From: an uncultured Alphaproteobacteria bacterium
GTDB taxonomy: Bacteria; Pseudomonadota; Alphaproteobacteria; CAAHEQ01; UBA3637
Direction of reading: 5' to 3'
Length of the DNA stretch: 64,000 bases
NCBI GenBank assembly: GCA_944393195.1
Contig: CALXZG010000001.1
Coordinates: forward strand, 1-64,000
Shown here in pieces: positions 12,131-36,047 of the stretch (position 1 is the first letter of the stretch; each line of letters starts with the position of its first letter). A model generated the notes under the pieces. That model was not told the origin of the DNA and searched no databases. It was given only the letters and a program-made list of their open reading frames with translations. The position numbers and the translations under genes were made by a program.

Positions 12131-12366
12131 ATCACACTCTCCCCCTTTGCATTATTTTTCGAATAACAGATATCAGGTATGCACAAAACCCACTTTTGTC
12201 AAGGGTTAAGCCGTATGAAAACAAGAATGTAAAACAAAAATAAAATCGGGTAGAATCGGGAAAATAAAAAGGCTTGATTTGGTTTTTTGGCTGTTTGTGT
12301 TGTGTATCAAATAAATAGATGTTGATTTGAAAAATAAATTCTTTTCAATATGTTATTTGACGAGTG

Positions 12367-12397
12367 TAACAATTTAATGTCCTTTTTTTGTTACAGT
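12367..12397. repeat. left dyad recombination-site candidate, locus A
   Basis: Halves TGTAACAATTTAATGT and CCTTTTTTTGTTACA. The left half is identical at all three switch loci; the right half matches the reverse complement of the inner half of the gene-proximal site at locus C. Confidence 0.75.
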
Positions 12398-12494
12398 TTT
12401 GATACCCGATTCGCGTTTTTTAAAAACAACGGGAACTCTTTATAATATCGATATTTTCTTCTTACTTTGTTTCCCCTTTTGTGATACATAACTT

Positions 12495-12526
12495 TATAAC
12501 ATTTTAAGGAACATTTTTTTGTTACA
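12495..12526. repeat. right dyad recombination-site candidate, locus A
   Basis: Halves TATAACATTTTAAGGA and ACATTTTTTTGTTACA. The outer half is shared, with small changes, by loci B and C; the inner half matches the reverse complement of the inner half of the distal site at locus C. Confidence 0.75.
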
Positions 12527-12544: not shown

Positions 12545-13972
12545 ATGATTGAAATGAATAAAGAAACCGGCCGTAGTATGGTTGAAATGTTGGGCGTTCT
12601 GGCGATAGTCGGCGCTCTCTCGATCGGTGGGGTAGCCGGGTATCGGTGGGCAATTGACAAGATGAATGCCGCCGACATTATCAATGAAGTCCAAAAGAGA
12701 GCTGTAACAGCAAGCCAACAACGGATTTTGGGACATGATATTAATTTAAAAGAATTTTATCCCCACGATGATGCCGATATGATTAAAGATCTTTATGAAG
12801 TGGTTGAGATGAATGATTACAGGGGGGGGGATAACGGCTTTTTTTCATTAACGGTCTTTGATGTGCCCCCGGGGATATGTGATAAAATTCTGGGTATGCA
12901 TTGGAAAATGCCCGTTGTTACGGAAATTGCCGGTGTTGTGGTTGATGAAAATACGGCCTGTATCGATAATAATAATGAAATGATGTTTGTATTTCATAAT
13001 ACATTAGACACTTCCCACCTGCCGGCGAATGGTGACTCACAGCAAACCCATAGGGACGCTAATGGGGATTGTGCGTCCGGTTATACCGGTGAAAATTGCG
13101 ATATATTTGATGATAATTGTAATGGTCATGGATGGTATTTTTATGAATTTGATACTTGTGTTTGTGACGAAGGGTATGGCGGTAATAATTGTGAAATTAC
13201 CTGCCCGAATGAGGAGTATCCGTTCATAATGGAAGGTGGGTGTTATTCTTGTGCTTCATCAATGATTTTACCACCAGAGGCATGTGATATTTGCCCCAGT
13301 CGATTTTTAGCAGATGGGGTTTGTTATCCTTGTTCTCTACCGGTGTCCGGTTCTTTAACGGCGGAAGAGTGTGCCAAATGCGGTGATGAACGATATATGG
13401 ATGGTAGTTCTTGCTATAAAAATTGTACAGAGACAGAATTTATGAATGTTTGGAGATACTGTTACTCTTGTGACGATCCGAATGATATTTATATGTCCGG
13501 TATGGAGGACACCTATTGCAAAAAGTGTAATGGCCAAAACGGTGCAAGTATGAGGTATTATCTTCAAGACTATATACATAGCGGCGGTTCCTATTACCCA
13601 ACACCTAATTTTTGTGTCAAAACATGTCCGGAAGGAACAACGGCCGATGCGACGACTCAGAATTGTGTTGTGTCATCCTGTTCTTTTGTTGGTAGTAGTG
13701 GTAGCGTGTACCCATGTTCGTATACTGCCGGTCCTTATACAACCGCGGCAGAATGTGCTAAGTGTGATGAAACGGAAACACCGCGATATATGAAAGGTAG
13801 TGCCTGCCTATTAGTATCATGCTCTAATGGGTATTTTGCAGATAAAAATGGTTATTGTACTTCTTGTTCGGTACCCGTTAGAACTAGTACAACAGCAGAG
13901 GAATGTGCTAAGTTTGATAGCACGGACACGCCACGGTATATGAGTGGTAATTATTGTTATAAAAAGTCATAA
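12545..13972 (+). CDS. type IV pilin-like protein with EGF-like and Cys-rich repeats (locus A)
   Basis: A 475-aa protein. The prepilin motif is G9 then RSMVEMLGVLAIVGALSIGG with Glu at +5. Residues 10-155 match the other pilin-like proteins in the window. After residue 165 there is an EGF-like unit ending CVCDEGYGGNNCE, then four or more Cys-rich units with the pattern CxPCS...TAEECAKC...RYM...CY. The last unit has EECAKF, losing one cysteine. A nine-G run at 12832-12840 codes for Arg-Gly-Gly, so a one-base slip would truncate the protein. AAAAGGAG lies 7 bases before the ATG and just after the right switch site. Probably a surface-exposed pilus tip or adhesin. Confidence 0.82.
   Translation: MIEMNKETGRSMVEMLGVLAIVGALSIGGVAGYRWAIDKMNAADIINEVQKRAVTASQQRILGHDINLKEFYPHDDADMIKDLYEVVEMNDYRGGDNGFFSLTVFDVPPGICDKILGMHWKMPVVTEIAGVVVDENTACIDNNNEMMFVFHNTLDTSHLPANGDSQQTHRDANGDCASGYTGENCDIFDDNCNGHGWYFYEFDTCVCDEGYGGNNCEITCPNEEYPFIMEGGCYSCASSMILPPEACDICPSRFLADGVCYPCSLPVSGSLTAEECAKCGDERYMDGSSCYKNCTETEFMNVWRYCYSCDDPNDIYMSGMEDTYCKKCNGQNGASMRYYLQDYIHSGGSYYPTPNFCVKTCPEGTTADATTQNCVVSSCSFVGSSGSVYPCSYTAGPYTTAAECAKCDETETPRYMKGSACLLVSCSNGYFADKNGYCTSCSVPVRTSTTAEECAKFDSTDTPRYMSGNYCYKKS
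12832..12840 (+). repeat. poly-G tract (9 G) inside pilin-like coding sequence
   Basis: Nine consecutive G in codons AGG GGG GGG G. Paralogs have non-homopolymeric codons at this point (Ala-Gly-Asp or Gln-Gly-Asp). A length change would shift the frame about 98 codons into the gene. Confidence 0.8.
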
Positions 13973-28474: not shown

Positions 28475-30286
28475 TTATTTCTTATAGCAATAATCTCCGT
28501 ATATGTACCGTTCATCACCACACTTTGCACATTCTTCTGGGGTTGCTTGGATTGCCATAGAATTATTCTCATCATATGAACAGGAATAACAAACACCATC
28601 ACTCCCCATAAACTCCCCATTTTGACATGGGAGTGCGCAATAGCCTCCTTCCGTTAAATAACGTGCTTCGCATTTGATACATTCCTCTAAAGTTGCGGCG
28701 ACACTAGAGGTATATGAACATGAATAACAGGATGCATCGTTTCCTCTGAACTCATCACTACCGCATGGTAAGGCACAATCTCCGGTATCTGTCATAACAC
28801 GATTAGAACATTTAGCACATTCTTTCGCAGCTACAGAAGAAATAGAACTTGAGTATGAACAGGAATAACATGTACCATTCGTATTCGCAAAATATCCGCT
28901 AGGACATGATATTAACGCACAATAACCGTTGTCTGTCAGATATCGTGGATAGTCTGTATCATTACACATGGCACATCCTTCCGCGGTTGCACGATAGGCC
29001 GAATTGGATGAACAAGAATAACAAGAACCATAACTACCTATAAATTGTCCACTGTTGCATGGTTTAGCACACCAGCCGGTTTCTGTCATAACACGATTGG
29101 AGCATTTTGCGCATTCTTCTGCGGTTGCCGGATCGCCACCGTTTCGTGAGCATGGAAAACAATCGCCATTGATACTCATAAACTTTCCACTGCCACACGA
29201 TGTTAAAGCACAATACCCGGTATCTGTCATATGTCGTGTGCCTCCGCATTTTGCACACTCTTCTGCAGTTGCAAGTTCTGCTGAGCTCCATGAGCAAGGC
29301 AAACAAATACCGCGGCTATCCCTAAATCGGTTGGAACACTTATCACATTCCTCCTTGGTTGCGCCGACACCCAAAATGTATGAACAAAACGCACAAGAAC
29401 CAGAGGAGGTCATGAACTCTTCATCACTGCACGATTGTACGACACAATAACCGGTATCTGTCATATATCGTGTACCTCCGCATTTGTTACATTCTTCTGA
29501 TGAAGCAATAACTCCGGAAGTTAATGAACAGGGATAACAATAACCATCACTACTTCTAAATTGTCCACTGTTACACGGTAGAACACAGAGTCCGTTTTCT
29601 GTCATCATTCGATTGGAACATTTCGCGCACGCTTCCGGAGGCACATCCTCGATGTTACTGGCTTCGTATGAACACGGATAACAACTCTGGTGATAACTGC
29701 CGCCTTCGGATATATTAGCCCAAAATCTTCCTTCCGGGCACTTTTCATCGAGTGTACATATACCGGTTTCAGGATCATGATATTCATTCGATTCACATTC
29801 CTGTTCCCATGGATTTATTGGTACTGTCACATAATCTAACACATTATGGAAGGCAAACAACATCTCATTCTCCCCCTCGGCGCATGTTGTATCATCATTA
29901 ACCACAACACCACCGACGGCGGTTTCCACCGGCATTGCCCAATCCATATCCAAGATTTTATCACACACTCGTTGCGGTACATCCGATACCGTCAGACTGA
30001 AAAATCCGCTATCCCCCTGATACGCATTTGCCGCCGTGACAGCATGCTGCCCTTTAATTCGCCCGTTATCCCCGTATTCCGCCAAGTTAATGTTTTGTCC
30101 CAACACCCGCTGTTGACTGGCCGTAATCGCCCGCTTCCGAACTTCATTGATAATGTCATTCGCATTCATTTTATCAATTGCATATCTGTATCCGGCAACA
30201 CCACCGATTGACAATACACCCATGACCGCCAGAACGCCCAACATTTCAACCATACTCCGACCATTTTCCATTTTGATTTCAGTCAT
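28475..30286 (-). CDS. type IV pilin-like protein with nine Cys-rich repeats (locus B)
   Basis: A 603-aa protein. The prepilin motif is G9 then RSMVEMLGVLAVMGVLSIGG with Glu at +5, in near identity to the protein at 34-1287 over the first 140 residues. From residue 190 on there are nine units of about 40 residues with the pattern FxxxxGxCYPCS...ATAEECAKCxxRxMTxTGYC, resembling growth-factor-receptor or furin-type Cys modules. This predicts a long, disulfide-rigid surface stalk. AAAGGAG is 10 bases before the ATG, and the dyad switch B lies immediately upstream. No downstream small RNA copy is present at this locus. Confidence 0.83.
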   Translation of the reverse strand: MTEIKMENGRSMVEMLGVLAVMGVLSIGGVAGYRYAIDKMNANDIINEVRKRAITASQQRVLGQNINLAEYGDNGRIKGQHAVTAANAYQGDSGFFSLTVSDVPQRVCDKILDMDWAMPVETAVGGVVVNDDTTCAEGENEMLFAFHNVLDYVTVPINPWEQECESNEYHDPETGICTLDEKCPEGRFWANISEGGSYHQSCYPCSYEASNIEDVPPEACAKCSNRMMTENGLCVLPCNSGQFRSSDGYCYPCSLTSGVIASSEECNKCGGTRYMTDTGYCVVQSCSDEEFMTSSGSCAFCSYILGVGATKEECDKCSNRFRDSRGICLPCSWSSAELATAEECAKCGGTRHMTDTGYCALTSCGSGKFMSINGDCFPCSRNGGDPATAEECAKCSNRVMTETGWCAKPCNSGQFIGSYGSCYSCSSNSAYRATAEGCAMCNDTDYPRYLTDNGYCALISCPSGYFANTNGTCYSCSYSSSISSVAAKECAKCSNRVMTDTGDCALPCGSDEFRGNDASCYSCSYTSSVAATLEECIKCEARYLTEGGYCALPCQNGEFMGSDGVCYSCSYDENNSMAIQATPEECAKCGDERYIYGDYCYKK

Positions 30287-30304: not shown

Positions 30305-30454
30305 TGTAACACAAAAATGTACCCTTTCGTGTTACACTTTGGACAAAAAATGACAAATCGATAACCGATTAATTCTTAATAAAAAAGGACTTGCGTCGCC
30401 CACCCGATTATGTTATAAAAACTGTAACAATTTAATGTACATTAAATTGTTACA
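30305..30454 (-). promoter_or_regulatory. candidate invertible promoter element, locus B
   Basis: Two 32-base dyads, 30305-30336 next to the pilin-like gene and 30423-30454 distal. The distal one is a perfect palindrome of TGTAACAATTTAATGT. The outer halves match those of loci A and C, but the enclosed 86 bases do not. The flank between the proximal site and the ATG is almost identical to that at locus C. Confidence 0.7.
30391..30419 (+). promoter_or_regulatory. promoter inside element B, facing away from the pilin-like gene
   Basis: TTGCGT, 17 bases, TATAAA on the plus strand, ending 4 bases before the distal dyad. The pilin-like gene is on the minus strand, so in this orientation the promoter points away from it. 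Inversion between the dyads would aim it at the gene with a leader of roughly 50 bases. Confidence 0.55.
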
Positions 30455-30618
30455 CTTGCCCGAATAACATATTGCAAAATTCATTTTTCATTCCTCTTTG
30501 CCACGGCATCAACATCAATTTTCGATATATCAATTCAAAAAATTGGAAATAATATCATAACAATATATCCCCCGTTTTAACGAGGGATATGTGATTTTAA
30601 TCATTTTAAGAAATAATT

Positions 30619-35753: not shown

Positions 35754-35918
35754 TGTAACAATTTAATGTTCCTTAAAATGTTATAGATGTTGTGTATCAT
35801 AAAAGAAGAAACAAAGCAAGAAGAAAATATCGATATTGTAAAGAGTTCCCGTTCATTTTGAAAAAAGTCAAGTAAGGCACAAAAAGTGTAACAAAAAAAG
35901 GAGCATTTTTTTGTTACA
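35754..35918 (+). promoter_or_regulatory. candidate invertible promoter element, locus C (opposite orientation to A)
   Basis: Distal dyad 35754-35785 (halves TGTAACAATTTAATGT and TCCTTAAAATGTTATA) and proximal dyad 35887-35918 (halves TGTAACAAAAAAAGGA and GCATTTTTTTGTTACA). The enclosed sequence is the reverse complement of that at locus A, including the block GGGAACTCTTTACAATATCG, while the outer halves keep the A orientation. The TACAAT box therefore faces away from the start codon at 35937. Confidence 0.75.
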
Positions 35919-35936: not shown

Positions 35937-36047
35937 ATGACTGAAATCAAAATGGAAAATGGGAAAAGTAATGTGTGTCGGAATGGTGATTTTGGGGTGT
36001 GTCACAAGACCCCCGATCGGGTCGGGGATGACGAAAAAAAAGGATGA
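35937..36047 (+). pseudogene. remnant of a pilin-like gene (locus C)
   Basis: ATG with AAAGGA upstream and codons for MTEIKMENG, identical to the start of the locus B protein, then abrupt divergence (KSNVCRNGDFGVCHK) and a stop after 36 codons. A REP-like repeat lies inside. The prepilin helix and whole ectodomain are missing, so the gene body was deleted between the leader and the downstream small RNA copy. Confidence 0.7.
36007..36033. repeat. REP-like palindromic element
   Basis: GACCCCCGATCGGGTCGGGG followed by ATGACG, the same family as the copies at 14-40, 14321-14347 and 63798-63824. It lies at the deletion scar of locus C. Confidence 0.7.

Follow-up and report, generated by a model that had tools for sequence, protein, structure and literature searches.

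The invertible promoters closest to those described here are under the control of the master invertase Mpi. Mpi of B. fragilis (Coyne et al. 2003, as cited in PMC4747536 and PMC8375218) inverts 13 regions (PMC4747536), and its repeat reads ARACGTTCGTN (PMC8375218). In B. intestinalis, the invertible segments measure 183-186 bp and transcription starts inside the proximal repeat (PMC8375218). Gut invertons detected with PhaseFinder/PhaVa (PMC11892184, PMC11868660) also consist of intergenic promoter inversions near surface genes that are grouped by shared repeats, and the largest groups named in one of these articles belong to Bacteroidota, Firmicutes_A, and Akkermansia. No report of a TRTAACA-N18-TGTTAYA repeat, or of the host considered here, was found in the literature searched. 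The cassettes that carry this repeat are probably invertible promoters forming an Mpi-type multi-promoter system for pilin phase variation, with an invertase, a promoter activity, and a present-day flipping that we infer from sequence. This putative Mpi-type system has a new site sequence and new targets, the pilins, and its host family differs from that of Mpi. It resembles Mpi in that its candidate recombinase belongs to the same family (NF009949), in that one remote invertase would serve many scattered surface-locus promoters, and in its short segments (about 150-175 bp with sites, vs 183-186 bp in B. intestinalis); a start inside the proximal repeat, as in B. intestinalis, fits the anatomy here. 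The repeat itself is different, which argues against a B. fragilis-type system but not against an Mpi-like way of working; moreover, the targets are pilins instead of capsule operons, they are more than twice as numerous as the 13 Mpi regions, and the host belongs to another group. The initial annotation had set the sites apart from those of the fim, Hin, and Mpi switches, which stands for the Mpi site sequence, whereas the enzyme and the layout turn out to be Mpi-like.

The fimS switch of the E. coli type 1 fimbriae, inverted by FimB/FimE, also comprises an invertible promoter located 5' of a fibre subunit gene. There, tyrosine recombinases are encoded beside one switch and the fibres are of the chaperone-usher type, whereas here the pilin genes are scattered and type IVb-like, and the predicted overlap is 2 bp. 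The adjacency of recombinase and switch is also not observed, the tyrosine recombinase gene at C1:232k being separated by ~100 kb from C1:129.8k, the closest cassette detected on its contig. The likeness to Hin and Gin lies in a small serine recombinase, imperfect palindromic sites, and a 2-bp central overlap. Inversion by Hin or Gin concerns one or a few segments and depends on an enhancer bound by Fis; the sites here are 32 bp long, not 26. The R64 PilV shufflon and Moraxella Piv likewise diversify type IV pilus proteins by DNA inversion, the R64 pilus being of type IVb. In these systems the coding sequence is inverted, by the tyrosine recombinase Rci in R64 and by the DEDD recombinase Piv in Moraxella, whereas the promoter alone would be inverted here. 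To our knowledge, the DNA inversions described for type IV pili act on coding sequence. If the Mpi-type reading is true, Mpi-style global promoter inversion extends to another, uncultured family and to type IV pili, and the surface fibres may change at random.

Three cassettes, A, B, and C, are present in the window, i.e. the whole 64-kb stretch of DNA that was analysed, and comprise the following features:

12365..12395: left (outer) site of cassette A, 31 bp, TGTAACAATTTAATG-T-CCTTTTTTTGTTACA, central dinucleotide one base short
12396..12494: invertible segment of cassette A, 99 bp, predicted promoter toward the gene (ON)
12461..12490, + strand: predicted promoter of A, CTTACT-N18-TACATA, assigned from conserved blocks
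12495..12526: right (gene-side) site of cassette A, 32 bp, TATAACATTTTAAGG-AA-CATTTTTTTGTTACA
12545..13972, + strand: gene A, type IVb-pilin-like, 475 aa, prepilin-like start G/RSMVE, C-terminal part Cys-rich
28475..30286, - strand: gene B, intact pilin-like paralogue, 603 aa, promoter segment in the predicted silent orientation
30305..30336: gene-side site of cassette B, minus strand reading TGTAACACGAAAGGG-TA-CATTTTTGTGTTACA
30337..30422: invertible segment of cassette B, 86 bp, predicted promoter away from gene B (OFF)
30390..30418, + strand: predicted promoter of B, CTTGCG-...-TATGTTATAA, directed away from gene B
30423..30454: outer site of cassette B, perfect palindrome TGTAACAATTTAATG-TA-CATTAAATTGTTACA
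30565..30590, - strand: terminator-like hairpin lying between cassette B and the obg/rsfS genes upstream of it, in the direction of reading into gene B
35754..35785: left (outer) site of cassette C, 32 bp, centre TT
35786..35886: invertible segment of cassette C, 101 bp, predicted promoter away from the gene remnant (OFF)
35791..35820, - strand: predicted promoter of C, CTTGCTTT...TATGATACACA, directed away from the gene remnant
35887..35918: gene-side site of cassette C, 32 bp, centre AG (CT on the other strand), mismatched with its partner TT
35937..36047, + strand: gene C remnant, a pilin leader of 36 codons, then a stop

Cassettes A and C had been read initially as a site-specific switch seen in its two orientations, and most of this description is borne out. 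All the half-sites quoted for them are present (12365-12395 and 12495-12526 in A, 35754-35785 and 35887-35918 in C), and the inner DNA of one is the reverse complement of the other (local alignment score 122 inverted vs 25 direct). The block GGGAACTCTTTATAATATCG, said to face opposite ways, is indeed found on the + strand at 12431-12450 and on the - strand at 35831-35850 with one mismatch (chance expectation 0.00). Exchange at the dyad centre accounts for the four sites, since those of C, inverted on paper, equal those of A with 1 mismatch vs 10 or more when uninverted. The direction assigned to the -10-like box also holds, but the TATAAT at 12441 is a less likely promoter than the conserved CTTGC...TATAA element of the same segment. 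As for A and C being switches, the arrangement is inverted as claimed, but both display crossover defects and are possibly locked. The other left sites have 32 bp and a TT or TA centre, and A is predicted to be locked ON because its left site lacks one base of the crossover centre, while C is predicted to be locked OFF because its centres are mismatched (TT/CT); hence both may be unable to recombine. The base missing from A at the predicted crossover, the broken gene behind C, and the whole of cassette B (30305-30454) had been overlooked.

The genome analysed (G000; 1,153,272 bases (1.15 Mb) in 24 contigs, 88.6% complete) is a fragmented assembly whose contig breaks fall at cassettes, and it was read in stretches around the sites. 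The 64-kb window contains four matches to TGTAACA-N14-24-TGTTACA vs 0.00 expected, two of them forming cassette B. The genome-wide inverted-repeat search that had been suggested returned 29 exact dyads and 70 dyads of the TRTAACA-N18-TGTTAYA form, the reversed-pattern control giving 0. Thirty dyad pairs were catalogued, each enclosing a ~86-111 bp promoter segment and nearly all located 5' of type IVb-pilin-like genes. Dyads scattered singly at unrelated promoters, the pattern expected of transcription-factor sites, were largely not observed: the dyads are mostly paired, and contig ends hold most of the unpaired ones. The family of ON/OFF promoters for surface fibres that the initial annotation had proposed is thus supported by 30 paired cassettes in both orientations, a candidate invertase, and a second species. 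The cassettes fall into three classes: class 1 has segments of 98-101 bp and includes A, C, and ten others; class 2 has segments of 86-87 bp with sites 118 bp apart and includes B and fourteen others; class 3 has 111-bp segments and three copies. One class-2 cassette (L019, C3:38710-38860) precedes a predicted lipoprotein gene (MKQTIATIFVLALLAGCS...), not a pilin gene. An orphan class-1 cassette (L172, C2:55379-55542, hereafter C2:55.4k) has upstream-type outer half-sites at its two ends, is not flanked by any pilin, and is perhaps the product of recombination between two cassettes. Two other loci were considered and rejected: C2:76004, as an excision scar, consists of a truncated pilin joined to part of a class-1 segment, and C5:32.6k (L175), as a product of inter-cassette recombination, has an outer flank that corresponds to the end of tsf and not to a pilin.

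The segments of all three classes contain a CTTGC box (CTTGT in class 3, CTTAC in A) followed ~17-20 bp further on by a TATAA-like box, and in every class this element adjoins one inner half-site. The predicted promoter of A is homologous to the CTTGCTTT...TATGATACACA / CTTGC...TATGCTATAAA elements of other cassettes. In class 2, the spacer is partly variable but the two boxes are conserved, and the element is therefore promoter-like. The pattern CTTG-N17-20-TAWAA occurs nine times in the window, and it is probably the housekeeping promoter of this organism because two of these occurrences lie 16-18 bp upstream of tRNA-Glu and tRNA-Asp. A generic sigma-70 scan did not find the promoter of cassette B, so the assignment relies instead on conservation and on the tRNA promoters.

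Class 1 occurs in both orientations, five copies lying one way (A, C1:82k, C2:15.6k, C7:54.7k, and C2:55.4k) and seven the opposite way (C, C2:85k, C2:101k, C20:16k, C4:37k, C5:50.8k, and C7:29.9k), among paralogous cassettes and not at one and the same locus, so that these could be old events. Local alignment scores are well apart by orientation (e.g. 138 vs 18, 134 vs 24); C2:55.4k and C7:29.9k lack a gene that would define their orientation. Four class-1 cassettes are ON with an intact gene, and nearly all others are OFF. The ON state thus concerns 4/10 class-1 copies with a gene vs 0/15 class-2 copies (Fisher p = 0.017, which is indicative only, the copies being related). Class 3 is also OFF (3/3), which brings class 2, with its TA centre, and class 3 together to 18/18 OFF, whereas class 1, with its TT centre, is mixed. 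The uniform OFF state of class 2 might stem from a strong promoter whose ON state is costly, or else from the palindromic TA centre. The half-sites travel with the segment, the outer-left halves reading ATTT and the outer-right halves AAAA/CAAA, and halves are paired like with like in OFF cassettes and unlike in ON cassettes. Swapping the halves of the OFF cassette C2:85k at the centre yields the sites of C2:15.6k and C7:54.7k with 0/64 mismatches, vs at least 11 when uninverted.

In the mechanism that we propose, two 32-bp imperfect palindromes would enclose ~86-111 bp with a housekeeping-type promoter beside one inner half-site. The Mpi-family recombinase encoded on contig C8 would bind both palindromes, cut the central 2 bp, and rejoin the ends after inversion. 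If the promoter faces the gene, transcription would start about inside the gene-side palindrome and the pilin would be ON; with the promoter reversed, the pilin gene would be silent. If the ~30 cassettes flip independently, the outcome would be phase variation of surface fibres, assuming that the products assemble into pili.

To analyse the crossover centre, the left site was set against the reverse-complemented partner site in 28 pairs, A being set apart for its 31-bp left site. The central 2 bp are identical in 26/28 pairs (TA/TA 14, TT/TT 12) and the central 4 bp in 25/28, vs only 10/28 for 6 bp. Shuffled pairing reached 26 matches 0/100,000 times, a figure that overstates independence since the classes are related. 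The exceptions are C (TT/CT, with a broken gene) and C7:6.5k (TA/TT). Serine recombinases require a 2-bp central overlap, while tyrosine recombinases usually need an identical overlap of 6-8 bp. An identity that is nearly general over 2 bp and infrequent over 6 bp therefore indicates a serine recombinase with a 2-bp overlap. A recombinase gene, which the initial annotation had advised looking for, is present: the only intact small serine recombinase found in the genome (C8:25265-25906, 214 aa) lies far from the cassettes and matches NF009949, the master DNA invertase Mpi family (282.4 bits, cut-off 272). Its ORF is intact, with the S9-type motif YIRVSTDKQ, and its nearest solved structure is Gin. 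This protein is most likely the cassette invertase, although another recombinase could be encoded within the missing part of the genome. Separately, a truncated Mpi-family gene (L042:7534-8108, C7:29.5-30.1k) abuts a damaged cassette whose outer half-site is replaced, close to pilus assembly genes.

Among 32 relatives of the same family, TRTAACA-N18-TGTTAYA dyads occur only in a congener, G003, which also possesses the only close orthologue of the C8 recombinase (79%, vs 59% for the next best relative); this co-occurrence of dyads and Mpi-type enzyme rests on one other species. The G003 dyads were detected via the TATAACA form, while the exact TGTAACA form was not found in the 56 relatives searched, save for one unrelated sequence. 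Paired cassettes of G003 precede pilins, and their centres match in the 3/3 readable pairs (GT/GT, GT/GT, and GA/GA). At one locus (L145) a promoter of the same shape, read by eye, is directed away, and two loci (L136/L142) carry the segment of a third (L152) inverted (scores 253 and 282 vs about 100); the gene-side site has been lost from the ON copies. Central dinucleotides of four kinds (TA, TT, GT, and GA), each matched within pairs, thereby offer natural tests of overlap specificity, and the ~30 tagged cassettes would be readable directly in any long-read metagenome containing the organism. Paired repeats were searched next to the Mpi genes of relatives and none were found. This bacterial family has multiplied its Mpi-family invertases, with up to 12 matches in one genome (G006), fragments and weaker matches included; neither 14 control genomes nor the genomes sampled from the class's other families contain a match over the cut-off. 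A paired-dyad scan of genome contigs gave two matches (L098:1-200 and L099:560-910, in a Sporosarcina MAG and in Clostridium sp. ASF356), both rejected as unrelated Firmicutes tandem repeats, and the pattern was not found in viral contigs. We give an even chance to the wider proposal that, in a 1.15-Mb genome from a family with multiplied Mpi-type invertases, one master serine invertase independently flips ~30 type IVb pilin promoters, so that promoter inversion, instead of gene conversion or the inversion of coding sequence, would make up a combinatorial pilus wardrobe.

The segments could invert by means of another enzyme, either a tyrosine recombinase of FimB/FimE size (C1:232135-232713, 198 aa) or XerC/XerD. 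The former is present in the genome, has the size of a fim invertase, and matches weakly NF007370 'tyrosine-type DNA invertase'. However, homologues 78-93% identical to it exist in G002, G004, G005, G011, G015, and G020, all devoid of dyads, whereas G003 has dyads and yet only a 25% homologue; together with pairs that share 2-4 central bp, and 6 bp in only 10/28, this makes a tyrosine enzyme improbable. Even less probable is that a dimeric repressor uses the dyads as paired operators, the orientations reflecting the duplication history of the promoters and not switching. Perfect dyads beside promoters, at a fixed spacing in class 2 (118 bp), would suit a looping repressor, and the class-2 copies all lie in one orientation, but operators do not need half-sites that swap partners exactly at the dyad centre along with the orientation of the segment, nor a central 2 bp that is matched within pairs and varies between them (TA, TT, GT, GA).

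In a last explanation, the cassettes might be the relic of a formerly invertible family, with most loci frozen, A locked ON and others locked OFF. Several of the above features fit such a decay, namely the crossover base absent from A, the mismatched centres and broken gene of C, the TA/TT pair at C7:6.5k, the G003 ON copies devoid of a gene-side site, and the 15/15 OFF copies of class 2. We nevertheless hold it to be unlikely, as matching centres are kept in 26/28 pairs, the invertase still has an intact ORF including its S9 motif, and the OFF pilins retain long ORFs with a dN/dS of about 0.1. The preferred reading is thus that of an Mpi-type set of invertible pilin promoters.

The proteins encoded downstream of the cassettes start with G/RSMVEMLGVLA, in which G/RSMVE is nearly invariant and the prepilin Glu5 is conserved. 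No pilin model among Pfam and NCBIfam matches them. The AF2 model of residues 1-155 of protein A (pLDDT 83) exhibits a 56-residue N-terminal helix, and its best PDB matches are the type IVb pilins CofA and TcpA (E 5.5e-3, prob 1.00, TM 0.59). Judging from this model, the predicted fold of the cassette proteins is that of a pilin and they are type IVb-pilin-like. The pilin domain is matched in 43 places of the genome. On contig C7, a PilO accessory protein, a T2SSE ATPase, and a T2SSF platform protein are encoded near each other, a set in keeping with a putative type IVb pilus. Many OFF pilin genes are intact, with long ORFs, and pairs of OFF copies give dN/dS values of 0.03-0.16 in the pilin domain at dS roughly 0.4-1.4, values that gene conversion could blur, though it would lower dS too. 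The OFF pilins are probably expressed at times, because genes that are never expressed would not be kept in this way by purifying selection. In several pilin genes (starts at L106, L108, L121, L129, L028, and L017), a dispersed repeat (...PSFLGLTRESVGDKKIPAFAGMT... in translation) is inserted in frame after the leader MTEIKMENGK and before the prepilin helix GRSMVEML. The broken genes at C20:8.5k and C1:129.8k are accompanied by a similar insertion. These insertions resemble the palindromic repeats that are known to be inserted in frame elsewhere.
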